Below, in pieces: positions 49,107 to 64,000 of a stretch of DNA of 64,000 nt; within the stretch, counting starts at the first letter, position 1; the number at the start of each line of letters is the position of its first letter. The notes below the pieces were generated by a model that had not been told where the DNA came from, made no database searches, and worked only from the letters and a program-made list of their open reading frames with translations. Location of the stretch: positions 1 through 64,000 of the forward strand of contig JAJYDQ010000004.1 in the NCBI GenBank assembly GCA_021777225.1. The letters run 5' to 3'. The translations under genes and the position numbers were made by a program. Origin of the DNA: Deltaproteobacteria bacterium. Its GTDB lineage: Bacteria > Desulfobacterota > Desulfomonilia > Desulfomonilales > Desulfomonilaceae.

Positions 49107-50327
49107 TTAGAGGGGTTTTTCCAGCTCAAACACATCATGCAAAACACGCACTGCCAGTTCTGCGTATTTTTTCTGGATAACGCATGAGATCTTAATTTCT
49201 GAAGTGGAAATCATTTCGATGTTGATTCCCTCTCTGGCTAGAGCAGCAAACATTCTTGAAGCCACACCGGAGTGGGAGCGCATCCCGAGGCCGATAATAG
49301 ATACTTTCGCAACATCCCTGGAGCCTGCCAATTTTTCGGCTCCCAGAATTTCTCTAACCCCTCGGCAAACTTCAAGTCCCTTATCAAGATCCGCCAGGGG
49401 AAGGGTAAACGATATGTCGGTTTTCCCATCTTCGCTCGAGTTTTGAATTATAACATCGACTACTACATTGGCTTCGGCCAGCGCGCCAAAAAGCTGTGAA
49501 GCCGTACCCGGAACATCAGGTATTCCTGAAAAAGTAATCTTGGCTTCTTTCGTGCTGCAAGTTACCGCCCGAACCGATTCTTTTTCCATATCTGAACTCT
49601 CCTCTGTAACCAGAGTCCCCTCGTTGTCATTGAAACTGGACCTGACAATTAGAGGGACTTTATGTCTCATTGCGAATTCCACCGCTCGAATGTAGAGTAC
49701 TTTTGCTCCTAAAGACGCCATCTCAAGCATTTCCTCATAAGCAATGCTTGGAATTTTCTTAGCCTCTGGAACAATGTTTGGGTCCGTAGTGTAAACACCG
49801 TCAACGTCAGTATAGATCTCGCATAAATCAGCTTTCAATCCTGCGGCGACAGCTACAGCTGACGTGTCGGAGCCTCCTCTACCCAATGTGGTTATGTCGC
49901 CATTTTCGTCAACACCCTGAAAACCCGCTATTATCACTATGGCCCCGTTGGCGAGGTCCTTGCTAATTTTGTCCGTGGCGATGTCCGTGACTCTTGCGGC
50001 TCCAAAAGCAGAATCTGTTGTAAGCGGCAATTGCCACCCGCAATAGGATTTTGCCTTATATCCCATAGATTCCAATGTAATGGCTAATAGGGCTATGGAA
50101 ACCTGTTCACCAGTGGAAACCAGGATGTCCATTTCTCGTTCATTCGGGATAGGTGTAATCTCCTTGGCCAAGTTGATCAATCGGTCGGTTTCTCCAGCCA
50201 TAGCTGACACAACCACAACAAGGTCGTTACCCTGGTCCTTACGCGCTGACACCCTGCGCGCCACATTAGCGATTCGATCTAGAGCGCCAACCGAAGTGCC
50301 TCCATACTTTTGAACAATAACAGCCAT
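49107..50327 (-). CDS. lysC: Aspartate kinase
   Basis: A 406-residue monofunctional aspartokinase. The N-terminal kinase has VQKYGGTSVG, ITTLGRGGSDTSAVAVAAGL and the YTDVDGVYTTDP motif. Two ACT domains for feedback control follow (about 265-335 and 345-405). It makes beta-aspartyl phosphate for Lys, Met and Thr. It is preceded on the same strand by tsaE and followed by cimA. No leader or riboswitch fits in the 70-base gap. Confidence 0.96.
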   Translation of the reverse strand: MAVIVQKYGGTSVGALDRIANVARRVSARKDQGNDLVVVVSAMAGETDRLINLAKEITPIPNEREMDILVSTGEQVSIALLAITLESMGYKAKSYCGWQLPLTTDSAFGAARVTDIATDKISKDLANGAIVIIAGFQGVDENGDITTLGRGGSDTSAVAVAAGLKADLCEIYTDVDGVYTTDPNIVPEAKKIPSIAYEEMLEMASLGAKVLYIRAVEFAMRHKVPLIVRSSFNDNEGTLVTEESSDMEKESVRAVTCSTKEAKITFSGIPDVPGTASQLFGALAEANVVVDVIIQNSSEDGKTDISFTLPLADLDKGLEVCRGVREILGAEKLAGSRDVAKVSIIGLGMRSHSGVASRMFAALAREGINIEMISTSEIKISCVIQKKYAELAVRVLHDVFELEKPL

Positions 50328-50399
50328 CCGTTTTCTCCAGATTAACTCAAAGATGGTTAGGACTTTTCTACGCGTCTTTGAGTTTCAAGGGCATAAAAG

Positions 50400-50888
50400 T
50401 CATTTCATGCTCAATGCCGAAAAGAAAGTTTCCGTCAATCTTGCGCTCCAGGCGCCAGGAATCATATACGTGAACTCAATCAGTCTTGAATCTTCATCAT
50501 CACCGATTGAGAAAGTAACCCTGAGTTCCGAATCAGAAATGGGAGCTTCATCAGACGCCCATTCGATCAGTATAGCGCCGTTCTCATCGATAGTCTCCAT
50601 CAATCCCAGTTCTTCAACAGCTCCGTAGCCGACTCTGTAAAGATCAGCATGATCTATCGTAAATGGGCCTTCATATCGATTGACAATGGTAAAACTGGGA
50701 CTGTTTACTTCGTCAATCGGGACTTTCAGAGCTTGGGAAATAATACCTTTCGCCAATCGGGTCTTTCCCGATCCCAGGTCGCCAATCAGAGAAACGATAT
50801 CACCCGGCCTCAGCATGGCGCCCAAAGCTTTTCCTATTGCAATTGTTTGCTGTTCGGAAGCTGAATCAATGCTGATTCTATTTGTCAT
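50400..50888 (-). CDS. tsaE: tRNA threonylcarbamoyladenosine biosynthesis ATPase TsaE
   Basis: A 162-residue P-loop protein required for t6A formation with TsaB and TsaD. Walker A GDLGSGKTRLAKGI lies at about 36-49, followed by SPSFTIVNRYEG, IDHADLYR and LIEWASD, the standard TsaE order. It is upstream of lysC on the same strand, about 70 bases apart. Partners tsaB and tsaD are not in this window, but tsaC is at 36.2 kb. Confidence 0.94.
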   Translation of the reverse strand: MTNRISIDSASEQQTIAIGKALGAMLRPGDIVSLIGDLGSGKTRLAKGIISQALKVPIDEVNSPSFTIVNRYEGPFTIDHADLYRVGYGAVEELGLMETIDENGAILIEWASDEAPISDSELRVTFSIGDDEDSRLIEFTYMIPGAWSARLTETFFSALSMK

Positions 50889-50947
50889 GCCTCTCTACAG
50901 GAGCGAACCCGGGATGTTGCCATCATGTTTTCAGAAAGCGTAATCAA

Positions 50948-51142
50948 TTACCATACTGAAATGCGAATTTCATGGCAAGAATTATCTATCCTGAAAATAC
51001 CCCAACTAAGAAGATCAGCGGCCTGAAGTCCAGGATCATTGTGAGATAGTTCATGTGTAATGAACAGGGACGTCTCCACTTTCGGATCTTGACTTACAGC
51101 GGGTGATTTATTGACTAAAAAATGACCAACTTTTTTTGTCAT
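50948..51142 (-). pseudogene. Remnant of a DUF3800-type gene
   Basis: A 64-codon reading frame with the phrase ITHELSHNDPGLQAADLLSWGIFR resembles the end of DUF3800 proteins, where D-S-x-x-x-x-GLQAADLIA-W is conserved. The rest of such a protein (about 230 residues) is missing. The fragment lies just beside the left side of an IS1380-type element, so it may have been cut off by the insertion. No matching piece was found on the far side. Confidence 0.45.
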
Positions 51143-51182
51143 CCCCTTACTTCCCTAGATCCTTCGCGAAAAAAAGAAAAAA

Positions 51183-51251
51183 ACCTCGTTGTTCTTGATA
51201 AATCAAGATGATAGAATTCTTTTATCAGAGAGAAATCATCACCAACGAGGT
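51183..51251 (+). promoter_or_regulatory. Inverted repeat covering the transposase ribosome site
   Basis: ACCTCGTTG (51183-51191) is complementary to CAACGAGGT (51243-51251), which contains the GAGG ribosome site of the transposase start at 51261. Inside, TTGAT-AA-ATCAA is a further small dyad. Transcripts entering from outside would fold and hide the ribosome site, a common safeguard of insertion sequences. Confidence 0.5.
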
Positions 51252-51260
51252 GAATGGATT

Positions 51261-52745
51261 ATGTCACAAGGTGTTTTGGGTTTCCAGTATGAAGTTGATA
51301 ATAAGCGTAGTGAGATGACGGCGCTGGGCGGATTGCCGGTATATCTTGAATTTGGTCACGTCATGGGGTTGACGGGTTGTCTTCGGGACCGTTTGGGGAT
51401 TAAGGATGATGATGAGGCTTGGAGTAGCGATCGGGACATGATGTCGCTTGTGTTGCTCAATCCTGCTGGCGGAGAGTGTGTGGATGATCTCAGGATACTC
51501 AATGGAGATGAAGGTTTCTGTTGAGTCTTGGCTGACATAAAAGGTTATGCGCTGCCCAGAAAGGCGAGGCGGTCTAAACGAGGTGAGCAAAAAGATTCGA
51601 AGGTTTTTCCTTCGCCTTCTACGGTATTTAGGGCCTTGGGGATGTTCCATGATAATGCGCAAGAGTTACTGCGTGAATCGGGTAAGGCGTTCATCCCGAG
51701 TCCTAATGAGAATCTTAGAAGTCTAATGTTGGCGCATCGGGATTTTATAGCTCGTGTTCAGAGACGAGCGTCTGTACAGGTTGCAACTTTGGACATGGAC
51801 GCTACATTGATAGAAACCAATAAGAAGGACGCCTTATATTCCTATAAGGGATACAAGGCTTATCAACCCCTTAACACTTATTGGGCCGAGCAGGAGTTGA
51901 TAGTCCATTCCGAGTTTCGCGATGGGAATGTTCCTGCTGGTTTTGAGCAGCTTCGGGTATTCAAGGACGCTTTAGAGTCATTACCTGACGGAGTTGAGAA
52001 GGTGTTATTACGTTCCGATACGGCCGGTTATCAGCAGGATTTGCTGATGTATCGCGCAGAAGGTAGGAATAAGCGTTTTGGAGTAATAGAATTTGCGATT
52101 GGCGTTGATGTGACCCCGGAATTTAAAAAGGCTGTGTTGGAAGTCCCTGACAATGACTGGATGTCACTAGGGGATTTTCAAGAATATGCCGAGGTGTGTT
52201 TTGTTCCTCACAGGATGGCCCGTAAGAAGCATGGCCCTGGTTACCAGTATATAGCAATTCGGGAACGACTCAAACAACAGGTCCTTCCAGGGATGGAAAA
52301 CCAGCTTAACTTTCCGTTTCAGACCATGGATATGGGACCGATGAGATACAAGATCACAGCAGTAATAACCAATCGAGACATCGTCGGCGATGATCTTATA
52401 AAGTGGTATAGGCACAGATGCGGAAAATCTGAAGAGGCGCACTCAGTAATGAAGGAAGACCTGGCTGGAGGAAAGCTGCCTTCGGGTTTATTCGGCGCCA
52501 ACGCCGGATGGTGGCAGATTATGATCCTGGCTTTTAACCTGAACTCGGCCATGAAAAGCTTGGTATTGGGTGATAGTTGGGTCAAGCTAAGACTAAAGGC
52601 CATACGCTTTAGGTTAATAAACTTGCCTGGTCGAGTTGTGAATCACGCGGGCCGCTTGATTATTCGACTCTTTGGCGCAAACCCATCGAAGTATACTCTC
52701 ATAGAGATGAGAAGGAGGATGTTGGAGCTTTGGGAACCGGGTTAA
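51261..52745 (+). pseudogene. IS1380-type transposase, interrupted by one TGA codon
   Basis: A 494-codon frame (ATG 51261, RBS GAGG) with an N-terminal part of 87 codons and a 407-codon remainder, both in the same frame. The break is a single TGA at 51522-51524 within FC-x-VLADIK, most simply a C-to-T change of a CGA arginine codon. The remainder carries the DDE residues (Asp in LDMDATLIE, Asp in RSDTAGYQ, Glu in KSEEAHS). No frameshift or deletion is seen, so the damage looks recent. The TGA lacks a selenocysteine context. Confidence 0.75.
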
Positions 52746-53178
52746 ACAGAGATTGTATTGTGCGACAAAAAAAGACCTATCAAAGGAGGCCAAATAGCGC
52801 TTCACGAGGGGAGTATGTTCGAAAATATGGTTTAAATTGCCCTAATCAGATATAGACCCTTAAGAAGTTGAGTCTTCGGTCTATCGACCAGTTGAAAAGC
52901 CAAGGCTAGTTACTCTAACGGTCGTCAAAAACCCGGAAAACGTCCCACATCTAAATCGCGTGGTGGATTTTGGTTGTGCAATTGTCTTGATCGGATAGGT
53001 CGGGGTTTGATAAAATGTTGTGTTGCAATAGTCTTCATGTTACAAGCAAGTCCTAGGGATTTATGTGATGCGATGTTCCATGGAAATTTGCACGGTCACG
53101 TTGACTCGTTTGTAAAAATCCCTTGAATTTTTATTCGCCGATTAAGAGAGGAAGGCGTAACGCCTGAATTATTGTAAG
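52746..53178. other. Intergenic region after the IS1380-type element
   Basis: A 433-base gap with no convincing gene on either strand. It should contain the right end of the insertion sequence (first 100-300 bases), and at its far end a promoter and a small GGCGT-type dyad upstream of the RibD-C gene. CTAGGG at 53053 is a weak candidate for the right tip of the element. Confidence 0.5.
53101..53128 (+). promoter_or_regulatory. Candidate promoter of the pterin-like operon
   Basis: TTGACT (53101-53106) and TTGAAT (53123-53128) are separated by 16 bases. The same two hexamers, 17 bases apart, precede rpmH. A short palindrome AGGCGT-A-ACGCCT (53153-53165) lies between this promoter and the first start codon and overlaps the probable ribosome site. 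Confidence 0.4.
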
Positions 53179-53934
53179 ATGGATTTCCTTAGGCCTTTGC
53201 TAGCTCTTGCCTCAGATTACAAAAAACGAAATGGTAGACCTTTTGTCACATTGAGTTATGCCCAAAGTTTGGACGGTTGTATTTCCGCCCGTCCCGGAGA
53301 ACCTTTAGCATTAAGTGGACAAAGGTCACTTCGTTTGACACATCAATTAAGGGCCGCCCATGACGCGATCCTGGTCGGTATTGGGACCGTGTATTCGGAC
53401 AATCCCAGGCTTACTGTTCGTTTGGTTAATGGTTCGAATCCCAGACCTGTTGTTGTCGACAGTTTTCTTAGAATCCCACTCGATTGCAATATTTTGACCG
53501 AGAGTTCCCGTGATCCTATAATTATTACAAGTAATATGGCAGAGGAAAGTAGAGTCAAAGTTCTGGAAGGGATGGGCGCCCTCGTAGTAAGGGTCAAGTC
53601 CAATGACAAAGGCTTGCTTAACCTGTCGGAGTTGTTGGGAGTCCTAGCCGACATGTCTATAAACAGCCTGATGGTCGAAGGTGGAGCCAGGATCATTACA
53701 AGTTTTCTAATGGACAAGTTGCCGGATTTCGTGGTGCTTACCATAGCCCCTGTTATGGTTGGAGGATTGAGGGCTGTAAGTGATCTTGGGGAGTCAGACC
53801 CTAGTCAGTATCTTCGGCTTAGGGATCCGGGACATCGATGGTTGGGTAAGGACCTGATATTATGGGGAAACCTGACGTGTAACTGCGACAACCAATCTGA
53901 ATTGCCGACCGCTGTTGGATCTGCCCGCTTCTAG
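53179..53934 (+). CDS. RibD C-terminal/DHFR-fold NADPH reductase
   Basis: A 251-residue stand-alone reductase of the RibD-C family, which reduces the pyrimidine intermediate of riboflavin synthesis or related pterins with NADPH. Family motifs: PFVTLSYAQSLDGCIS, AILVGIGTVYSDNPRLTVR, RPVVVDSFLRIP and SLMVEGGARIITSFL. A full RibD is encoded elsewhere in the window, so this copy is probably specialised. It is followed 27 bases later by the dehydrogenase. Its C-terminus (about 232-251) extends past the usual end. Confidence 0.88.
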   Translation: MDFLRPLLALASDYKKRNGRPFVTLSYAQSLDGCISARPGEPLALSGQRSLRLTHQLRAAHDAILVGIGTVYSDNPRLTVRLVNGSNPRPVVVDSFLRIPLDCNILTESSRDPIIITSNMAEESRVKVLEGMGALVVRVKSNDKGLLNLSELLGVLADMSINSLMVEGGARIITSFLMDKLPDFVVLTIAPVMVGGLRAVSDLGESDPSQYLRLRDPGHRWLGKDLILWGNLTCNCDNQSELPTAVGSARF

Positions 53935-53961
53935 GGCCAGTGATATCCCAAGTATGGAACC

Positions 53962-55035
53962 TTGTTAGAAAAAGTGACCGGGTCGAGTTCACAAACATTA
54001 GTCAGGTCTCTTTACTTTGAAGGACCTGGGCGCATATCCATAAGGGAAGGTTCTATTCCCGGACCTCGAGCCACTGAAGTTACTGTAAAGACTATGTTTT
54101 CCGCTATTAGTTCCGGCACGGAGTCTCTTGTTTATCTGGGGCAATGGCCTGAAGAACTGGTTGTTGACGAGAACATTTCATCCTTATCAGGCAAATTTTC
54201 ATATCCTCTCAAATACGGCTACGCTGCGGTTGGAAGAATAATTGGCCTGGGCGAGTCCGTGTCCCCTGACTGGCTAGGAAGGTTGGTTTTTGCCTTTAAC
54301 CCTCATGAAACGCATTTTGTAACTTCCCCCGACCAATTGATTGTGATTCCGGAAGGTGTCAGCAATGAAGGGGCATGTTTCCTCCCAAACATGGAAACAG
54401 CTTTAAACCTGGTCATGGACGGAAACCCCGTTATAGGAGAAGCAGTAACAATATTCGGGCAGGGTGTGGTTGGACTTCTAACAACAGCATTGCTGGCGAG
54501 GATGTCTCTTGGAAAAGTTGTGACTTTTGACAAATATCCTATGCGTAGACAAGCTTCGTTAGCTTTTGGAGCGGATTTGTCAATTGATCCAACCAGGGAT
54601 TTTGGTTCCGACCGTTTTGAGGACTTCTTTTCGGGTTCATTAAGCGATGACTTTAAGGCCGATCTTACTTATGAGCTGTCCGGGTATCCCGAAGTTCTCA
54701 ATCAGGCTATTTCAATCACCGGTTTTGACGGCAGGATAGTGGTTGGATCATTTTATGGTTCAAAGGAAGCGTCGATCAAAATGGGAAGCTGGTTTCACAG
54801 GTCAAGGATCAGGTTTATCAGTAGTCAGGTCAGTTCGATAGCCTCACACCTCACTGGCCGATGGTCCAAGACAAGACGATTGCGTATGGCCCTAAAGATG
54901 ATTGCTAAAATTGAACCGGAAAGACTCGTTACCCACAGGATAAATTTCTCCGATGCTGGGAAAGCATATGAACTAATCACCAAAAGGCCTCAGGAAGCAA
55001 TCCAGGTGATTCTTTGCCATGAGGAAAACGCATGA
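53962..55035 (+). CDS. Zinc-type (MDR) alcohol dehydrogenase-like protein
   Basis: A 357-residue medium-chain dehydrogenase/reductase. The GroES-like N-terminal half has ISSGTESLVYLGQ and KYGYAAVGRIIGLG. The Rossmann half contains VTIFGQGVVGLLTTALLARMSLG and an acidic Asp at the end of strand 2 (TFDKYP), suggesting NAD preference. Several classical zinc ligands of alcohol dehydrogenases are not obvious, so it may be zinc-free. It starts at TTG 53962. Its last four bases overlap the PTPS-like gene. Likely reduces or oxidises an intermediate of the same pathway. Confidence 0.85.
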   Translation: MLEKVTGSSSQTLVRSLYFEGPGRISIREGSIPGPRATEVTVKTMFSAISSGTESLVYLGQWPEELVVDENISSLSGKFSYPLKYGYAAVGRIIGLGESVSPDWLGRLVFAFNPHETHFVTSPDQLIVIPEGVSNEGACFLPNMETALNLVMDGNPVIGEAVTIFGQGVVGLLTTALLARMSLGKVVTFDKYPMRRQASLAFGADLSIDPTRDFGSDRFEDFFSGSLSDDFKADLTYELSGYPEVLNQAISITGFDGRIVVGSFYGSKEASIKMGSWFHRSRIRFISSQVSSIASHLTGRWSKTRRLRMALKMIAKIEPERLVTHRINFSDAGKAYELITKRPQEAIQVILCHEENA

Positions 55036-55433
55036 ATCCAAATAGTCAATCTGTATACGTTGTAGCGGTGCAACGAAATTTTGTGGCGCGCCATTTTCTG
55101 TTTGGGGGAGATTGGGGACCGGAGAACGATCTTCACTCTCATCATTATCGCGTAGAAGCCCGTTTGGAAGGGAACGAGCTTGACCAACACGGATATCTTG
55201 TCGATATAGTTGAAATTGAAAGCCTTCTTGATGGGTTGGTGGCCCGATATTGCGACAGCGCGTTAAATGATCTGCCGGAATTTTCTGGTTTGAATCCCAG
55301 TATCGAACATTTTTCCCGGATTTTTTGTGAAAAGATGTGGAGTGGCGTTACCGCTGCTAATATCAGCGCCATAACAATAAGAATTTGGGAAAACGATATA
55401 GCTTGGGCTCAATATAGAAGAGAGCGTATTTGA
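55032..55433 (+). CDS. 6-pyruvoyltetrahydropterin synthase/QueD-like protein, Cys replaced by Glu
   Basis: A 133-residue member of the PTPS/QueD tunnelling fold. Zinc ligands are His21 (FVARHFL), His35 and His37 (LHSHHY). The catalytic Cys normally four residues before the first His of the HxH pair is Glu31 here. The Glu form recalls PTPS-III, which in some organisms makes 6-hydroxymethyl-dihydropterin in place of FolB. The NPSIEHFSRIF helix is also conserved. It overlaps both neighbours: ATGA with the dehydrogenase and TTGA with the glycosyltransferase. Confidence 0.85.
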   Translation: MNPNSQSVYVVAVQRNFVARHFLFGGDWGPENDLHSHHYRVEARLEGNELDQHGYLVDIVEIESLLDGLVARYCDSALNDLPEFSGLNPSIEHFSRIFCEKMWSGVTAANISAITIRIWENDIAWAQYRRERI

Positions 55434-56521
55434 AGGTTGGACTGGTAATTTATGGAAGCCTGGATATCTTGACGGGCGGTTTCATTTATGATCGTAAACT
55501 GGTCGATTTTATTCAGGCCCACGGAGCGATTGTTGAAATTTGCTCTTTGCCTTGGCGAGATTATGCTTCCCATCTAACTGATAATCTATCGTACAAATTC
55601 TTCAGCCGACTAAAAATGGCGGACTTCGATATTCTTCTGGAAGATGAGCTAAATCATCCTTCGCTTCTCACTGCTAACCGCTCGCTATTGAATTCATCGA
55701 AATATCCCATATTATCCATAGTTCATCATCTCAGATGTAGTGAGCTTAGGTCAAACATTGCGAACCATTTCTACCGAAGGATAGAACGGATGTATCTAGG
55801 GACTGTCGACGGCTTTATTTTTAATAGCGGCGCAACCCGGAAAAGTGTCGAGACGCTTGGCCTGCCGCCTAGGCCATCTGTGACGGCTTATCCAGGCCGA
55901 AATAGTCTAAACCCGGGTGTAAATTCGCAATTCATCCGGAAACGCGCTCAGGGTCACGGTCCTTTAAGATTACTTTTTGTTGGCAGCTTGATCCCGAGAA
56001 AACAGTTGCATACACTTGTGGAAGCTTTATCACATATTCCAAGAAAGGAATGGGCTCTACGAGTTGTTGGCTCTCTAGAAACGGACAAAAATTACACCAA
56101 CGAAGTGTTTGAGCATTTAAGGCGGTTTGAGGTTGAAAACAACGTGTCGTTACTAGGGTCGATGTCTGGTGATGAGCTTGAAGCCGAATACCGTAATTGT
56201 CAGGTTCTTGCGGTCCCTTCTTCATATGAGGGATTTGGAATAGTGTATCTTGAGTCCATGGGGTTTGGCGCGCCGCCACTGGCGTCTACAGCGGGCGCTG
56301 CCTGCGAAATGATTACAGATGGATTAAACGGGTTTCTTGTAAACCCTGGGGACATTAAAGGTATTTCCGAAAAGATCGGTCGCCTGGTCAGCGACAGGGC
56401 GCTTTTGGTCCAAATGGGGGAAGCCGCTTTGGATCGTTTCGCCAGCCATCCGACATGGGAACAAAGCTGCGAGAAGATGTTTAATTTCATGAAAGAGATG
56501 GTCTGTAAGAGTCATGTTTGA
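55430..56521 (+). CDS. GT4-type glycosyltransferase
   Basis: A 363-residue GT-B fold glycosyltransferase, family 4. The N-terminal half starts VGLVIYGSLDILTGGF, and the C-terminal half has LRLLFVGSLIPRKQLHTLVEAL with the E-x7-E motif in SSYEGFGIVYLESMGFG. It transfers a sugar from a nucleotide donor. The start is TTG 55430, overlapping the PTPS stop (TTGA), and its end overlaps the methyltransferase by eight bases. In this operon the acceptor is likely a pterin-type molecule or its alcohol, not a lipid. Confidence 0.87.
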   Translation: MKVGLVIYGSLDILTGGFIYDRKLVDFIQAHGAIVEICSLPWRDYASHLTDNLSYKFFSRLKMADFDILLEDELNHPSLLTANRSLLNSSKYPILSIVHHLRCSELRSNIANHFYRRIERMYLGTVDGFIFNSGATRKSVETLGLPPRPSVTAYPGRNSLNPGVNSQFIRKRAQGHGPLRLLFVGSLIPRKQLHTLVEALSHIPRKEWALRVVGSLETDKNYTNEVFEHLRRFEVENNVSLLGSMSGDELEAEYRNCQVLAVPSSYEGFGIVYLESMGFGAPPLASTAGAACEMITDGLNGFLVNPGDIKGISEKIGRLVSDRALLVQMGEAALDRFASHPTWEQSCEKMFNFMKEMVCKSHV

Positions 56522-57449
56522 TGAATCAAATTACTCTTTTGCCAGATATCTGTCGTCCAAGAAAAGTGTCGATAACAGGGCTTTAAACAGGGTTGTGTGG
56601 CAGAGATTGCAATCCATCATTGCTAGTGAACATTCTGGAAAGCCATCGGCAATATTGGAAATTGGGGCAGGCATAGGGACGATGTTTGAGCGGTCGCTTG
56701 AATGGGGGCTTTTCAAAAAAGCTTATTATACTGCAATTGACGCCATGTTGGAAAACATCCTGGAAGCCAGGGCGAGAATTCCGGGCTGGGCTTACAATGC
56801 CGGTTATAAAGTTGAAGAAATCGCTGATAATGAACTGAGACTTACCGGTTCGGGCTCAGACGTAACTTTGAAACTTGAAGATGGCGATTTTTTCGACTTT
56901 GCGAGGAAAAACAGTGGCCATCATGCTTGGGACCTGATTATAGCGAATGCTTTTCTGGATCTTGTGGATGCTGGAAGGACTCTACAGATCACAATGAACC
57001 TCATCAAACCTTCAGGATTACTGTATTTTACAATAAACTTCGATGGATCTACAGTTCTGGAACCAGAAATTGACGCTGAATTTGATGCTCTTGTTGAACG
57101 TTTGTATCATCGGACGATGGATGATCGGCTGATAGATGGAACAATATCCGGTGACAGCAAAACGGGGAGACATTTCTTCGAAGTTGCGAGAAAGAACAGT
57201 GTAGAAATACTTGAAAGCGGGTCTTCAGATTGGACCGTATTTGCGGGAAAAGATGGTTATCGTGAAGATGAGTCTTATTTTCTGCATTTCATAGTCCATA
57301 CTATGTATAGCGCCCTTAAAGAAAGGCCGGAACTGGACCGTCAAAGATTCAATAGATGGATTAAGGAGAGACATTCTCAGATTGAAGATGGTAAGCTGGT
57401 TTACATAGCCCATCAACTGGATTTTTTGTGCAGGAAAGCGGAAAATTGA
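56514..57449 (+). CDS. Class I SAM-dependent methyltransferase
   Basis: A 311-residue methyltransferase with the glycine-rich SAM motif ILEIGAGIGTM (about 46-56), the acidic residue of motif II in YTAIDAM, and DLIIANAFLDLV (motif IV). A C-terminal cap of about 100 residues, starting VEILESGSSDWTVF, probably holds the acceptor. It begins inside the end of the glycosyltransferase gene. It would methylate the glycoside or the heterocycle. No paralogue with a known substrate is recognised. Confidence 0.83.
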   Translation: MFDESNYSFARYLSSKKSVDNRALNRVVWQRLQSIIASEHSGKPSAILEIGAGIGTMFERSLEWGLFKKAYYTAIDAMLENILEARARIPGWAYNAGYKVEEIADNELRLTGSGSDVTLKLEDGDFFDFARKNSGHHAWDLIIANAFLDLVDAGRTLQITMNLIKPSGLLYFTINFDGSTVLEPEIDAEFDALVERLYHRTMDDRLIDGTISGDSKTGRHFFEVARKNSVEILESGSSDWTVFAGKDGYREDESYFLHFIVHTMYSALKERPELDRQRFNRWIKERHSQIEDGKLVYIAHQLDFLCRKAEN

Positions 57450-57551
57450 TAATCTGTCCGTAATGCATAACAAAAATGTAGTTTTCTGAATTTGGGAAAA
57501 GAAGGTTGCCGCTATCGCTATTTATTCCATTAACTCGATTTTCAGGAACCT

Positions 57552-58199
57552 ATGATGTCATTGAACAAAATACTTGAAAGATGGAAGGCCGCTAGCCGAA
57601 AAACTATCCCGCCGGATAAGCTGCTGATTATGGACAGGGCTCAAGCGGAATTGGCCGAATCAGGGATTGATGAATCTTGTCTGCGAGAAGGAGATTTTGC
57701 TCCGAGATTTGAACTCCCCAACGCTACCGGTCAGAATGTTTCTCTTCAGGATTTGTTGACTAAGGGGCCTTTAGTTTTGTCTTTTTATCGAGGAGGCTGG
57801 TGACCGTACTGCAACATTGAGCTGCGGTCATTGCAGCGCAGGCTTGACGACATAAGCGCACTTGGAGCGTCACTGGCGGCTATCTCTTCTGAAACACCAG
57901 ATGATTCATTATCCGTAGTAGAGAAGAATGAACTGAGCTTTGAGGTGCTTAGCGACACCGGCGGCAAGGTTGCCCGTGAGTTCGGGATCGTGTTCCCGCT
58001 ACCGAAGGATTTGTTGCGGTTTTACTCAAGCTACGGTGTCAGAGTGATCGAGGAGGGTGGTAATGGCTATTTTGAGTTGCCTATTCCAGCTACCTACATA
58101 ATTGGAAGAGACAGAAAGATCCTCAAAGCGTATGTGGATGTAGATTATACCAAACGACTGGATCCTGAAGAGATCATTGAGGCGCTCAAATCAATATGA
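57552..58199 (+). CDS. Peroxiredoxin-like selenoprotein (AhpC/TSA superfamily), in-frame TGA
   Basis: A 216-codon frame whose codon 84 is TGA (57801-57803). Immediately before it is FYRGGW and after it PYCNIELRSLQ. Relatives in the AhpC/TSA Prx-like group read FYRGGWCPYCN, so the TGA sits exactly where Cys is normal and the protein would be U84-P-Y-C87. A hairpin of SECIS type follows. Downstream sequence is in frame and intact to TGA 58197-58199, with the usual thioredoxin-fold strands (TPDDSLSVVEKNELSFEVLSD). Predicted redox enzyme reducing peroxides or disulfides. It ends 57 bases before the sigma-54 regulator. Confidence 0.88.
57801..57836 (+). promoter_or_regulatory. Bacterial SECIS-like hairpin
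   Basis: Directly downstream of the TGA, CTGCAA (57809-57814) pairs with TTGCAG (57831-57836). A 3-base bulge (CAT, with U adjacent to the upper stem) is followed by TGA/TCA (57818-57820 with 57828-57830) and a seven-base loop GCTGCGG. The loop begins with G, 18 nt after the TGA, which fits the 16-37 nt spacing and the loop G that I recall for bacterial SECIS elements. It would bind SelB. Confidence 0.7.
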
Positions 58200-58256
58200 G
58201 CCGCTTTAAAAAATAACCGTGATCATTACGCAGTTCAACAGGGTTCGAAAACGACT

Positions 58257-59636
58257 GTGAAGCAGGCTCATTTGAAATCTAGGACACCTACGGAAGCCAT
58301 ACTGGAGAGCATCTCAGATGGGGTGTTTACCGTTGATCTCAAGTGGCGCATCACTTCGTTTAACAGGGCCGCCGAAGAGATAACAGGCGTGAGACGCGAA
58401 GAAGCAATAAGCAGTCTTTGTTCGGAGGTTTTTCGGTCAAGCATGTGCGGAACTGATTGCGCTCTTCAGCAGACTCTGAAGACCGGCAAGCCCATCATCG
58501 GCAAATCGGTATACATAATCAAGGCCGATGGCTCGCGCAAACCTATTAGTGTATCTACTGCCGTTTTGCGGGATGACAATGGTCGGGTAATAGGCGGCGC
58601 CGAAACTTTTCGTGACCTGAGCGAACTCGAAGCGCTACGCCGTGAACTGCAAGGAAAATTTCAGCTAGGTGATATCGCTAGCCGAAGTCCGGTTATGCAT
58701 AGAGTAATGGAAGCTCTCCCTGCTATCGCCGCAAGTCCAAGCACAGTGCTAATTCTTGGAGAGACAGGCACCGGTAAGGAACTGGTAGCCCGTACGATCC
58801 ACAACTTGAGCCCACGACGAAACGGTCCATTTGTTGCGGTAAATTGTGGAGCCTTGCCGGATGCCTTGTTGGAATCAGAACTATTTGGTTACAAAGCAGG
58901 GGCCTTTACCGGGGCCACCAAAGATAAGCCGGGACGCTTCACTATGGCCAAAAATGGTACTATTTTACTGGACGAAATAGGAGAAGTCAGCCCGGCTGTT
59001 CAGGTGAAACTCCTCAGAGTGCTTCAGGATCGGGTTTATGAACCGCTGGGGGCTACAAGGTCTGAGATCGCCGATGCCAGGATTGTTGTCGCCACCAACA
59101 AAGACCTCGGGGAACAGATGCGCATAGGCGCGTTCCGCGACGATCTCTACTACCGGGTTAATGTAGTCCGCGTGGAATTGCCGCCCTTGAGAAAACGCAA
59201 AGAAGACATCCCCCTTTTGGTGACCCAATTCATAGAGCGTTTCAACCGCCTTCAAGGTAAATCCATTACCGGGATTGCGACTGAGGCGCTTTCTTTGCTT
59301 ATGGCTCACGACTGGCCGGGAAACATCAGGGAATTGGAAAACGTCATCGAGAGGTGTTTCATTATGTGCGACGAGGGGCTTATAGCGATTGGCCACTTAC
59401 CTGATGATTTGACAGCGCACAACTTATCGAGAAACACACCGTCCGAAATACGATCTGCACATGACTTTGTAGACATGCAAGCCATACAAACGGCATTGGA
59501 ACGTAACGGTTACAACCGGTTAGCCGCCGCCAAAGAACTCCATATTCACAAAACAACTCTTTTTCGCCGAATAAAGAAACTGGGCATAATCCTACCGAAA
59601 GTGGATGGTCGGAAAAGCAAAACACGGCTTGAGTAG
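58257..59636 (+). CDS. Sigma-54-dependent activator with cysteine-bearing PAS domain
   Basis: A 459-residue enhancer-binding protein. PAS domain (about 12-125), with Cys55, Cys64 and Cys68 (LCSEVF..MCGTDC), which might hold a metal or redox centre. AAA+ domain (about 140-380): Walker A GETGTGKE (168-175), GAFTGA at 215-220 for sigma-54 contact, and DEIGEVSP. A Fis-type HTH closes it (about 410-445, NRLAAAKELHIHKTTLFRRIKKLG). The start is GTG 58257. It probably controls the promoter at 59768 next door. Confidence 0.93.
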   Translation: MKQAHLKSRTPTEAILESISDGVFTVDLKWRITSFNRAAEEITGVRREEAISSLCSEVFRSSMCGTDCALQQTLKTGKPIIGKSVYIIKADGSRKPISVSTAVLRDDNGRVIGGAETFRDLSELEALRRELQGKFQLGDIASRSPVMHRVMEALPAIAASPSTVLILGETGTGKELVARTIHNLSPRRNGPFVAVNCGALPDALLESELFGYKAGAFTGATKDKPGRFTMAKNGTILLDEIGEVSPAVQVKLLRVLQDRVYEPLGATRSEIADARIVVATNKDLGEQMRIGAFRDDLYYRVNVVRVELPPLRKRKEDIPLLVTQFIERFNRLQGKSITGIATEALSLLMAHDWPGNIRELENVIERCFIMCDEGLIAIGHLPDDLTAHNLSRNTPSEIRSAHDFVDMQAIQTALERNGYNRLAAAKELHIHKTTLFRRIKKLGIILPKVDGRKSKTRLE

Positions 59637-59682
59637 CATCATTACTACTCATGCTCGCTGGCTAGGTAGCATATAGGCTACT
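59631..59682 (+). promoter_or_regulatory. Clustered dyads, candidate upstream activator sites
   Basis: GAGTAG (59631-59636) and CTACTC (59645-59650) form one dyad; GTAGC (59666-59670) and GCTAC (59677-59681) form another around ATATAG. The repeated GAGTAGC/GCTACTC wording suggests related binding sites. They lie roughly 90-135 bases upstream of the -24/-12 promoter, a typical enhancer distance, and just after the activator gene. Confidence 0.5.
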
Positions 59683-59767
59683 CTATTAGTAACCACACCT
59701 CCACACCAACTGCCAATAATCTTTATCATTCAATGCTCTAACCTAAAGCGCCGAAGCGAATAAACTT

Positions 59768-59783
59768 TGGCACATTTTGTGCT
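59768..59783 (+). promoter_or_regulatory. Sigma-54 (-24/-12) promoter
   Basis: TGGCACATTTTGTGCT matches the consensus TGGCAC-R-N4-TTGC-W at all defined positions except one (G for T before TGC). The GG (59769-59770) and GC (59781-59782) dinucleotides have the required spacing. It lies 38 bases upstream of the NifX-like gene and 132 bases after an activator of sigma-54. Confidence 0.8.
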
Positions 59784-59821
59784 TATCATCTGTATAGTAA
59801 CTGAGAGTAGGTTTTGAGTTC

Positions 59822-60466
59822 ATGAAAGCAGCCTTTTCTTACTTTGACAATCGCATTGCGCCGGTTTTTGATACGGCCCGGCAGATTGTACTGGTAGAAG
59901 CGGTTTCGCGACGAATCGTGAAAGAAAGTCAGGAAATCTTTGGCGATGACCTGCCAGTTCAGAAGGCGATCCAATTAGCGGAGTTTAGCGTTAACGCGCT
60001 TGTATGCGGGGCAATTTCGAAACAGTTACAAGAGATAATCATCGCATATGGTACTCAGGTCGTCCCGTTTGTGATAGGCGACTTGAAAGAAGTTATTTAT
60101 GCCTGGGCCAACAACAGGCTTTATGATCGGCGTTTTACAATGCCTGGCTGCAGGGGGCTGAGAAGCCAAAGATTTGGATGTAAGGTTTTCAAGGAACAGG
60201 AGGATACGATTATGCCACGAGGAGATGGTACTGGTCCACAGGGAACTGGAAAAAGAGGTGGAGGGATGGGAGCAGGCGGTGGACGCGGCCAAGGTCAATC
60301 CCAAAGGCAAGGTGGCCAAGGGGCCGGACGCATGGGTAGAGCGGCAGCAGGCGCAGTCGGGTTTTGCGTCTGCCCCCAGTGCGGGGATCGTCAGCCACAT
60401 CAGCGAGGGACGCCATGTTTTGAGCAAAAGTGCTCCAAATGTGGCGCAAGTATGGCGCGAGAATAG
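59822..60466 (+). CDS. NifX/NifB-like domain protein fused to glycine-rich DUF5320-like tail
   Basis: A 214-residue protein. Residues 1-110 form the dinitrogenase iron-molybdenum-cofactor-binding (NifX/NifB-C) fold (KAAFSYFDNRIAPVFDTARQ..NALVCGAISKQL). After residue 131 comes MPRGDGTGPQGTGKRGG and a Gly/Gln-rich stretch. The C-terminus (CVCPQCGDRQPHQ..CFEQKCSKCG) is a zinc- or iron-ribbon-like motif. An internal ATG at 60212 with AGGAGG suggests that the tail was once, or still is, made separately. It sits directly after a sigma-54 promoter. Confidence 0.8.
   Translation: MKAAFSYFDNRIAPVFDTARQIVLVEAVSRRIVKESQEIFGDDLPVQKAIQLAEFSVNALVCGAISKQLQEIIIAYGTQVVPFVIGDLKEVIYAWANNRLYDRRFTMPGCRGLRSQRFGCKVFKEQEDTIMPRGDGTGPQGTGKRGGGMGAGGGRGQGQSQRQGGQGAGRMGRAAAGAVGFCVCPQCGDRQPHQRGTPCFEQKCSKCGASMARE
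60198..60214 (+). promoter_or_regulatory. Internal ribosome site and ATG inside the NifX-like gene
   Basis: AGGAGG (60198-60203) eight bases before ATG (60212), in frame with the upstream NifX-like domain (codon 131). The next 35 bases are identical to the start of the separate DUF5320 gene (60495-60529), which has a similar AAGGAGG. A second product of 84 residues could be initiated here. Confidence 0.55.
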
Positions 60467-60496
60467 AACAAATTCTAAAGAAAGGAGGACATAGTT

Positions 60497-60871
60497 ATGC
60501 CACGAGGAGATGGTACTGGTCCACAGGGATTGGGATCAATGACCGGACGAGCCGCCGGATATTGCGGTGGCTCAGGAATGCCGGGTTATGTGAACGCCGC
60601 CCCAGGACGTCCTTTCGGAGGGGGTTTTGGACGTGGCCCTGGTTTTCGAGGAGCTGGAATTGGTTCTGCGGGCCGTGGATATCGTTGCAGATTCTTCGCT
60701 AGCGGCATACCGGCCCGGGGTCGATTCGGCCCTTACTCGGCGCCGCTTCAGGGGACGGACCCAGAGATTGAGAAACAGATTCTAAAGAACCAGGCAGACT
60801 CGTTGGAGTCTGAATTGGAATCCATCAAGAAGCGCTTAGCTCAGTTCGATAGAGGCTCTTCTAGTGATTAA
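60497..60871 (+). CDS. DUF5320-like glycine-rich protein
   Basis: A 124-residue protein with MPRGDGTGPQGLGSMTGRAAG at the start, the signature of DUF5320-type proteins often encoded beside NifX-like and MRP-like genes. A Gly/Arg/Phe-rich middle precedes a C-terminal coiled coil (about 90-118: EIEKQILKNQADSLESELESIKKRL). The ribosome site AAGGAGG is strong. It is 30 bases after the NifX-like gene and shares 35 identical bases with its internal start. Function unknown. Confidence 0.75.
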   Translation: MPRGDGTGPQGLGSMTGRAAGYCGGSGMPGYVNAAPGRPFGGGFGRGPGFRGAGIGSAGRGYRCRFFASGIPARGRFGPYSAPLQGTDPEIEKQILKNQADSLESELESIKKRLAQFDRGSSSD

Positions 60872-61038
60872 CCCTTAAGAAGCCGGCTGGTTCGCCTTAT
60901 ACGCCGCTATAAGAATCAGTCGGTCACTCTCAACGACTTCATCATGATCATTAAAAACACAAGGTTGAAATCTAAGAAGCGTTGTTTAGATAAAAACCCG
61001 TCTTGTGATAAAAGGAAATAAAAACCCGAGGGGAAAGT

Positions 61039-62097
61039 ATGAAAACAAAATCACTCATGAGTCTAACCCTAGGAACCTTTGCCACGTTGGTAGTAGCTAT
61101 GTCCTGTTATGCGCAAGGAATGAATGAGGATAATTGTTTTTATCTCAAAAGCCTTCACGCGACCACCAGAGGAATGGCTTATTGGTATGACAAAGCCAAT
61201 GGGGGCCTAGAAACGATAGTGGGAGTTCCATATTCACAGGCCGGGTGCGCCAAGTGTCATGTTTCATCTTGCGACAACTGTCACAAGCAAATTGTAAATG
61301 GGAAAGCGCAATACTCCGCTGAAGCGGCGAAAAATCAGGAGAAGTGCATGGGCTGCCATGGACGGGAGGCGTTCATGATCATGAAAATTGACAAAGCAGC
61401 AAACACGCCTGACGTTCACGTCGCAAAAGGAATGACCTGTATGGATTGTCATACGTCACGTGAAATTCACGGTGACGGGAACGTGTACAAATCGATGAGG
61501 GAACCCGGAGCCATGGATGTGACCTGCGAGCAGTGCCATGATTCTTTGCCAAAAAGCCTCTCACACACCATTCATGGGAAAAAGTTGGGTTGTACCGCCT
61601 GCCATGTCCGCCACGTCGTAAGTTGCAACAGTTGTCACGTGGAGACTATGCTCAAAGAGAAAAAGCGGGTATCCCTACCCGTGTCCGGCTGGAAGTTCCT
61701 CATGAATTACAATGGCAAGGTTACCGCTGCGAACATGCAAACCTTTGTCGCTCCGGGCGATAAAACCTTCATGTTGTTTGCTCCTCAATTCAGCCATTCA
61801 GTGATGAAAGAGGGTTCTAAATGCGAAGAATGCCATGCTACAAAAATTGATAAACAGATTCTCAATGGAAGTATCGATCTCTCTTGGCTCGATAAGGGTA
61901 AGGAACAAAACCTAAAGGGCGTTATTCCGGTCGTGAAAGGTGTCCGTTACAATTGCATATACGAAAAGTATCATGACGGCGTATGGACGCCTATTACCAA
62001 TCCAGTAGACCCCAAAACGCAGTATGTGGGGTTCGGTTCACCATTGACGCAGGAACAGCTCAAGAAGCTTCTAACTCCACAGAAAAGCAAAAAATAG
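61039..62097 (+). CDS. Octahaem c-type cytochrome
   Basis: A 352-residue exported protein. A signal peptide (about 1-25, ATLVVAMSCYA-Q) is followed by eight CxxCH haem sites: CAKCH, CDNCH, CMGCH, CMDCH, CEQCH, CTACH, CNSCH and CEECH. Spacing is irregular, unlike NrfA or hydroxylamine oxidoreductase, whose signatures (CxxCK, catalytic Tyr) I do not see. The C-terminal 90 residues lack haem sites and may bind a partner. A good GAGGGG ribosome site precedes the ATG. Probably an extracytoplasmic electron carrier or reductase; the family is unassigned. Confidence 0.88.
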   Translation: MKTKSLMSLTLGTFATLVVAMSCYAQGMNEDNCFYLKSLHATTRGMAYWYDKANGGLETIVGVPYSQAGCAKCHVSSCDNCHKQIVNGKAQYSAEAAKNQEKCMGCHGREAFMIMKIDKAANTPDVHVAKGMTCMDCHTSREIHGDGNVYKSMREPGAMDVTCEQCHDSLPKSLSHTIHGKKLGCTACHVRHVVSCNSCHVETMLKEKKRVSLPVSGWKFLMNYNGKVTAANMQTFVAPGDKTFMLFAPQFSHSVMKEGSKCEECHATKIDKQILNGSIDLSWLDKGKEQNLKGVIPVVKGVRYNCIYEKYHDGVWTPITNPVDPKTQYVGFGSPLTQEQLKKLLTPQKSKK

Positions 62098-62181
62098 AGC
62101 GCTCAAAGTTACGCGTGGTTGTTTGCTGGCCTGCAAGAATCTTTTGGACTGGGTTTAGTGAAATCGCTCGAAAGGAAGCCT

Positions 62182-62967
62182 ATGAAAATTTTGGACACTC
62201 TAATTGATAGCCTTAACGGCAAAGACCTGGCAGTGAAGAATGTTTGTTGTGGAGCTTTCTGGACAATGGTAACCACTCGGCATTCCGGCCTGGCGTCCAC
62301 CTACAGAGAACAGGATTTCAAAGACAGCGATGACCACTGCATGATAAATGACGCTGGGCGGCTCACAGAAAAGCTAGCCGGAGATCTTGCTGAATACGCC
62401 AGGTCAGATGACACAGTAGCCGCGTCAATTGGTATGGCTACTATTAATTCCCTGATCGAGGTAGATGAACATCGATGCAGGGATATTGGGGCTTATGAAA
62501 TTTTGGCTGAGAAAGGAAGAAATCTGGACGTGGCGGTAGTGGGACATTTTCCTTTCATCCCTAAATTGCGTGATGTCGCTAGAAATGTGTGGGTGATTGA
62601 GAAACAGGCTCGGCCGGGTGACTTTGCCGAGAGTGAGGCTAAAAATATTCTGCCAAAAGCCGATGTTGTGAGTCTTACCGGCACAGCTTTTATAAATCAT
62701 ACCATTGAAGAATTACTGAGCCTTTGCAGGGATAGTTATGTAGTCCTAACAGGTCCGACATCGCCCCTCACTCCGGTGCTTTTCGATTTTGGGATCGACG
62801 CTATTTGCGGAACTCAGGTAGTGAATGTGGACAACGTGGAGCGCTTTGTTATGCAGGCGGCGATCTTCAAACAGATACGACACCAGGGGTGTGCGACTGT
62901 TAACAATGATGGCCTAGCGCTTCATATGCTGAAGTATCGGTATATCGTTACAGACTGCCTTATGTAG
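62182..62967 (+). CDS. DUF364/DUF4213-type putative heavy-metal chelation protein
   Basis: A 261-residue cytoplasmic protein matching the DUF4213 N-terminal region (EQDFKDSDDHCMIND and SIGMATINSL) and the DUF364 Rossmann-like C-terminal domain (VAVVGHFPFIPKLRDVARNVWVIEKQARPGDFAES, in part; ADVVSLTGTAFINHTIEELL). The DUF364 fold has been named a putative heavy-metal chelation domain. The ATG at 62182 follows GAAAGGA; the upstream in-frame ATG at 62119 lacks one. It is adjacent to the cytochrome and radical SAM genes. Role inferred only. Confidence 0.8.
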   Translation: MKILDTLIDSLNGKDLAVKNVCCGAFWTMVTTRHSGLASTYREQDFKDSDDHCMINDAGRLTEKLAGDLAEYARSDDTVAASIGMATINSLIEVDEHRCRDIGAYEILAEKGRNLDVAVVGHFPFIPKLRDVARNVWVIEKQARPGDFAESEAKNILPKADVVSLTGTAFINHTIEELLSLCRDSYVVLTGPTSPLTPVLFDFGIDAICGTQVVNVDNVERFVMQAAIFKQIRHQGCATVNNDGLALHMLKYRYIVTDCLM

Positions 62968-63033
62968 ACAGACGCCGAGATTTTTCTTCGCTTTGAGAAA
63001 CAATATGATAGATCACTGAAGTAGGTACGGGAA

Positions 63034-63984
63034 ATGAATCGAAATAAATTCCATCATGTTTATGGCCCTGTTCCCTCGAGGCGTTTGGGGCGCTCACTGG
63101 GAGTCGATCTTGTGCCGTTCAAAACATGCTCTTATGATTGCGTTTATTGTCAGCTCGGAAAAACTTCCAAAAAGACCATTGATCGGAAAGAATATGTGGC
63201 CATAGAGGATGTGTTGGAGGAACTGGAGCTAAAACTCAGATTCGAAGCCTTCCCAGATTATATAAGTTTGGCAGGGTCCGGAGAACCAACTCTGAACCGG
63301 GGGATTGGTCATTTGATACATCGAATCAAGCGATTGACCACAGTCCCAATTGCTGTGCTTACCAACGGTTCCCTCCTGTGGATACCGGAAGTCCAGGAAT
63401 CTTTGTTGGAGGCGGACATTGTCCTCCCCTCTTTGGACGCTGGTGACGAAGTTTCATTTCGTTATGTCAATCGCCCACACAAAAGTATCTCGTTTGAAAC
63501 GATGGCCAAGGGCCTTGTGGATTTTACAGAGGTGTTTTCAGGCTCGGTATGGCTGGAGGTATTCCTTCTTGGTGGAGTCACGGGTGCTTCATCAGCGGTG
63601 AAAAAGATTGCTAGCCTGGCGAATGAAATTGGCCCAGAACGGGTTCAGTTGAACACAGTCTCACGCCCACCAGCAGAGGAGTTCGCTTTCCCAGTAAATG
63701 GGAAAAAGATGCAGGAATTAAAAAAACTTTTTCCAGACAATGTTGAGTTGATTACAGAAAACTGCCTCGGGAAAGTACCCATTACAAAGCAACAAGAAGC
63801 GAACAACTCGGATATCTTGGCGTTGCTCAGCAGACGTCCATGCACTGTTCAGGGCGTGTCAGTCGGATTAGGAGTTAATCCCGGCGAAGCAGCCAAACGA
63901 CTTCAGCTTCTTAATCAACAGGGGGATATTAAAGTTGTGCGTAGTAACGACATGATCTTCTATGAAAAAGTGGGACTCCGTTAA
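63034..63984 (+). CDS. Radical SAM protein, YGPVPSRRLG family
   Basis: A 316-residue radical SAM enzyme. The family start YGPVPSRRLGRSLGVDLVPFKTC is shown in part; the cluster motif is Cys32, Cys36, Cys39 (CSYDCVYC). SLAGSGEPTLN is the SAM-binding GEP motif. The C-terminal 65 residues (about 252-316: ILALLSRRPCTVQGVSVGLGVNP) look like a winged-helix domain, so DNA or protein binding is possible. It is 66 bases after the DUF364 gene. Proteins of this type are often encoded next to NifX-like or metal-cofactor genes. Substrate unknown. It ends 16 bases before the window edge. Confidence 0.86.
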   Translation: MNRNKFHHVYGPVPSRRLGRSLGVDLVPFKTCSYDCVYCQLGKTSKKTIDRKEYVAIEDVLEELELKLRFEAFPDYISLAGSGEPTLNRGIGHLIHRIKRLTTVPIAVLTNGSLLWIPEVQESLLEADIVLPSLDAGDEVSFRYVNRPHKSISFETMAKGLVDFTEVFSGSVWLEVFLLGGVTGASSAVKKIASLANEIGPERVQLNTVSRPPAEEFAFPVNGKKMQELKKLFPDNVELITENCLGKVPITKQQEANNSDILALLSRRPCTVQGVSVGLGVNPGEAAKRLQLLNQQGDIKVVRSNDMIFYEKVGLR

Positions 63985-64000
63985 CAGCGCAAGCGATCAT

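Follow-up and report, generated by a model that had tools for sequence, protein, structure and literature searches.

A predicted peroxiredoxin-like selenoprotein gene with a UxxC motif in a deltaproteobacterial genome

Peroxiredoxin (Prx)-like thiol:disulfide oxidoreductases, or Prx-like 1 proteins (pfam00578), are selenoproteins with a UxxC motif that have been in the literature since Kryukov and Gladyshev 2004 (PMC1088965, PMC1794560, PMC2398784, PMC13188914), and a 2026 review files them as “predicted with high confidence” (PMC13188914). A peroxiredoxin-like family protein, cd02970, with a UxxS motif is also listed in that review, where its entry attributes it to a study of the Olavius algarvensis delta symbiont (PMC13188914). 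A gene resembling the former kind is described here from a window of 64,000 nucleotides (the whole stretch of DNA that was analysed) from a deltaproteobacterium of the family Desulfomonilaceae.

The gene, of the AhpC/TSA type, is placed at 57555–58199 on the forward strand by its read-through translation, its Pfam AhpC-TSA match, and the MSL starts of its relatives. The only in-frame TGA before the terminal stop in 57552–58199 lies on the same strand at 57801–57803, within SFYRGGW-TGA-PYCNIEL, and is the putative codon of Sec84, the N-terminal residue of UxxC; the codon of Cys87, the C-terminal residue, is at 57810–57812. The frame is open for 89 codons 5′ and 131 codons 3′ of this TGA and closes at the terminal stop, also TGA, at 58197–58199. 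A first-pass annotation had described a lone TGA in FYRGGW-TGA-PYCN between two open halves, and this description is confirmed. Residue numbers used here (Sec84, Cys87) count from the first ATG (57552). Since the first codon of relatives (MSL...) aligns with the second ATG, the true start is probably 57555, which would give 214 codons and make Sec residue 83 of 214. The 215-residue protein first proposed, with Sec at position 84, was therefore right as to the site and probably wrong as to the start.

Pfam AhpC-TSA matches the read-through protein at 101.7 bits (cut-off 26; E 3.6e-29) in one stretch, residues 47–190, that spans the TGA. As had been foreseen, annotation splits the gene: a mechanical ORF caller breaks it into pieces of 83 and 122 codons. 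None of the NCBIfam models attains its cut-off with the restored protein, and a real selenoenzyme could therefore be missed in routine annotation. The second version of a codon-bias scan for TGA-interrupted genes ranked the gene fifth, among chance-like candidates. Elsewhere in the window, a DDE transposase frame (PF13701) at 51162–52745 is broken by a TGA at 51522–51524, with open frame on either side; it is probably an insertion-sequence transposase that has decayed or been split, and no selenoprotein.

An AlphaFold2 model of the protein, built with 40 relatives, has a pLDDT of 93 and is predicted to have the peroxiredoxin fold. The best PDB matches are the peroxiredoxins BcpB (5epf), Bcp4 (3hjp), and AhpE (4x0x), with Z about 21 and rmsd 1.5–1.8 over about 150 residues within 42–215, and the Foldseek list also includes ResA-type thiol-disulfide oxidoreductases. 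When aligned with BcpB, FYRGGWUPYC lies over FYPAAMTPGC, with Arg80 at the signature Pro, Sec84 at the Thr, and Cys87 at the peroxidatic Cys of TPGC; in place of the canonical PxxxT/SxxC signature, the protein has RxxxUxxC. All 40 aligned sequences share Arg80, Gly81, Trp83, Cys87, and, when TGA is counted as Cys, the residue at position 84. The same correspondence between TxxC and CXXC is cited for cyanobacterial Prx-like CXXC proteins (PMC3514251).

With Sec84 at the Thr and Cys87 at the peroxidatic position, it is safer to read the motif as a UxxC redox couple of the thioredoxin-like type. Judged by sequence, the two residues probably act together as a selenol/thiol couple, and thiol-disulfide chemistry is the moderately favoured assignment for the predicted enzyme. 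That the protein is instead a Sec-dependent peroxidase, which would be compatible with its being a selenoprotein, is a lesser though real possibility: the peroxiredoxin fold, the position of BcpB and AhpE as nearest solved structures, and the retention of the peroxidatic position by Cys87 speak for it, but the change from PxxxTxxC to RxxxUxxC, with an invariant Arg80, does not, nor does the fact that the attacking residue occupies the first CxxC position in thioredoxins and not in peroxiredoxins. The first-pass annotation had offered a peroxidatic or thiol-disulfide centre; the second holds as the more careful wording, and the alignment lends no support to a peroxidatic Sec. The gene neighbourhood contains no co-conserved operon that would name a substrate for the putative oxidoreductase, since the PAS/sigma-54 activator/Fis-type regulator encoded directly downstream, at 58257–59636, keeps its position only in the nearest relative (records L083 and L002).

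Conservation of the TGA extends well beyond the window. Counting the window's gene, TGA occupies the codon within WxPYC in 31 genes from 30 genomes. The 30 others were found by whole-genome searches of the window's family and phylum; they come from 29 further, independently assembled genomes of the phylum, mostly from other families, have exactly one stop each, and share 33–81% protein identity with the window's protein. Within the phylum search, only 2 of 31 matches were without the TGA, namely L135 and an additional copy in genome G259, and the match in genome G286, a broken fragment with several stops, was left out of the count of TGA genes. Homologues had been expected to carry Cys at position 84, and 79 relatives indeed have TGC or TGT in this column. 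Among 80 relatives from a scan of public genomes, the aligned codon is TGC or TGT in all but two (L002 and L003), which have TGA and are both labelled Deltaproteobacteria. One relative's genome has a second Sec copy (L132, G011:C12:27392-28006) with the motif WUVFCN, in which Val replaces the usual Pro after Sec.

Purifying selection is equal on either side of the TGA. Values of dN/dS, which are rough because dS is near saturation, were 0.065 on the 5′ side and 0.070 on the 3′ side against L083, 0.115 and 0.130 against L084, and 0.099 and 0.108 against L085. If the gene were a pseudogene, or the product of a sequencing or assembly error, the TGA would be a nonsense change at a Cys codon, and it is in fact one base from the TGC and TGT of relatives. 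This explanation is rejected as exceedingly improbable, in keeping with the first assessment that a random nonsense mutation was unlikely: TGA stands at this codon in 30 other genes from separate assemblies, across genera and families, and is thus neither chance nor sequencing error; selection is strong as well as equal on both sides; and machinery for Sec is present in the genome.

This machinery, which the first-pass annotation had named as a check, was sought by family searches, and SelA, SelB, SelD, and tRNA-Sec all occur in the source genome. With this result, and with Cys or TGA at the position in homologues, neither of the two findings that would have refuted the first-pass reading was made. 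SelA scores 490 bits at full length, SelB 402 bits over model positions 1–580 of 581, and SelD 350 bits (L128, G000:C14:30209-31135). The selD gene is itself interrupted by an in-frame TGA, SLAKTSG-TGA-AAK, which we take to be the known Sec site of SelD. The tRNA-Sec scores 68 bits, above its cut-off, and has the anticodon TCA (UCA). SelA is above cut-off in 29 of the 30 other TGA-bearing genomes (G286 included), the exception being G382, which is 82% complete. In the 16 Cys-form genomes, SelA reaches a full score in two and shows up as a weak partial match in two more, while the other 12 gave no match. SelA is thus found in nearly all genomes with TGA and in few with the Cys form, and the codon therefore follows the machinery. 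A code variant in which TGA was reassigned to Trp or Gly in this lineage has next to no probability, for although the open frame alone would support it, TGA is regularly used as a stop (at the end of 14 of the window's 41 long frames and of 4 of 11 neighbouring genes checked), the aligned residue is Cys and neither Trp nor Gly, and the genome has a tRNA-Sec whose anticodon is TCA.

A putative bacterial SECIS (bSECIS) hairpin follows the TGA at 57821–57837 on the forward strand, identified by its folding energy, its agreement with bSECIS limits, and an excess of structure over synonymous shuffles. Its 6-bp stem, GCUGCG/UGCAGC, pairs 57821–57826 with 57832–57837 and is capped by a 5-nt apical loop, GUCAU (57827–57831), that begins with GU; the spacing from TGA to loop is 23 nt, and the folding energy for 57819–57839 is -8.6 kcal/mol. 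The published model specifies a stem of 4–16 bp, a loop of 3–9 nt with G in the first two loop positions, a spacing of 16–37 nt, and an MFE of at most -7.5 kcal/mol, and the hairpin fits within all of these limits (PMC13188914).

RNA structure was separated from protein constraint by shuffling synonymous codons within each gene. Over the 42 nt after the TGA, the mean z was -1.68 in 34 TGA sequences, which represent fewer independent cases because near-duplicates occur among them, and -0.27 in 79 Cys sequences. A sliding 42-nt window at +9 gave mean z values of -1.3 in TGA genes and -0.01 in Cys genes, and a 33-nt window at +12 gave -1.96 and -0.19, respectively; elsewhere along the gene, the mean z was near 0. 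RNA structure beyond the protein's needs is thus confined to the hairpin site and to TGA genes. The signal emerges only with synonymous-codon shuffles and pooled relatives. In the window's gene, the 63-nt stretch from the TGA onward shows no stability beyond that of dinucleotide shuffles (z -0.38), and the SECIS-like hairpin has a competitor in a longer fold in which the UGA itself is paired. No compensatory pairing was found for the hairpin within the window's own clade. In a second clade, another hairpin (e.g. AGAGCU-GGA-AGCUCU) occupies nearly the same place, with modest covariation that consists of one compensatory pair only, at a codon that also differs in amino acid. An Rfam scan of 50000–64000 gave no match to SECIS or any other family, just two matches at chance level.

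When the 31 TGA and 79 Cys sequences are placed in a tree, six changes between the two states are needed, of which two are imposed by branches with good support. The tree does not give the direction of the changes; many of its inner branches are weak, and sampling differed between the two sets. We tentatively suggest, with somewhat less than even confidence, a separately definable FYRGxW-U-PYCN subfamily that has an extra helical N-terminus of ~40 residues, is without its own NCBIfam model, has interchanged Sec and Cys forms more than once, and has its SECIS hairpin in two clade-specific designs at nearly the same place, one with a 5-nt GUCAU-type loop and the other with a 3-nt GGA/GGC-type loop.

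The frame, its conservation under equal selection, the machinery, the hairpin signal, and the Prx fold were established computationally, and from them we infer Sec insertion itself. The gene, first called a probable selenoprotein, is almost certainly a selenoprotein gene, a prediction that draws support from the conserved TGA, the Sec machinery, the equal selection, and the hairpin signal. In the proposed mechanism, SelB carrying Sec-tRNA(UCA) would bind the hairpin that closely follows the UGA, and Sec would be inserted there instead of termination. The product would be a Prx-like oxidoreductase with the active site Sec84-Pro-Tyr-Cys87, in which the Sec84 selenol and the Cys87 thiol may form a selenenylsulfide upon oxidation; a thioredoxin-type donor would then return the enzyme to its reduced state. 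The gene leaves the overall view of bacterial selenoproteins unchanged and is ordinary for this bacterial group. With its many Sec and Cys versions, the family is suited to studying Cys–Sec exchange and the way in which room for a SECIS hairpin is made within a coding sequence.

Several known selenoproteins invite comparison. Sec peroxiredoxin (PrxU, TxxU) has the peroxiredoxin fold in common with the window's protein, but its Sec is peroxidatic, whereas the window's protein has Cys87 at that position and Sec three residues earlier; the PrxU model scores 29 bits against it (cut-off 270). Elsewhere in the source genome, two AhpC/TSA genes (L158, G000:C151:38972-39367; L159, G000:C91:580-978) have an in-frame TGA in FYPGDFTFV-TGA-PTE, at the peroxidatic position; by this motif they are classed as canonical Sec peroxiredoxins (TxxU), and one of them has a signal-peptide-like N-terminus. 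SelL carries UxxU, and the profile of SelL-related redox proteins (NF040769) gives a weak full-length match of 36.7 bits, far under its cut-off of 120. A literature search for the motifs WUPYC and FYRGGW found nothing relevant. The cd02970 protein, MDX2448127.1, is likewise an AhpC/TSA “Prx-like” selenoprotein of a deltaproteobacterium, set apart by the motif listed for it, UxxS in place of UxxC. In contrast, the Prx-like UxxC selenoproteins (pfam00578) resemble the window's protein in their AhpC/TSA domain, single Sec in a thioredoxin-like UxxC, bacterial SECIS, widespread Cys homologues, and occurrence in Deltaproteobacteria. Placed by its AhpC-TSA domain and U-P-Y-C motif, the window's gene is a well-supported further member of this kind, which has WP_010940744.1 as its reference sequence and has been described since 2004–2005 from Deltaproteobacteria among others.
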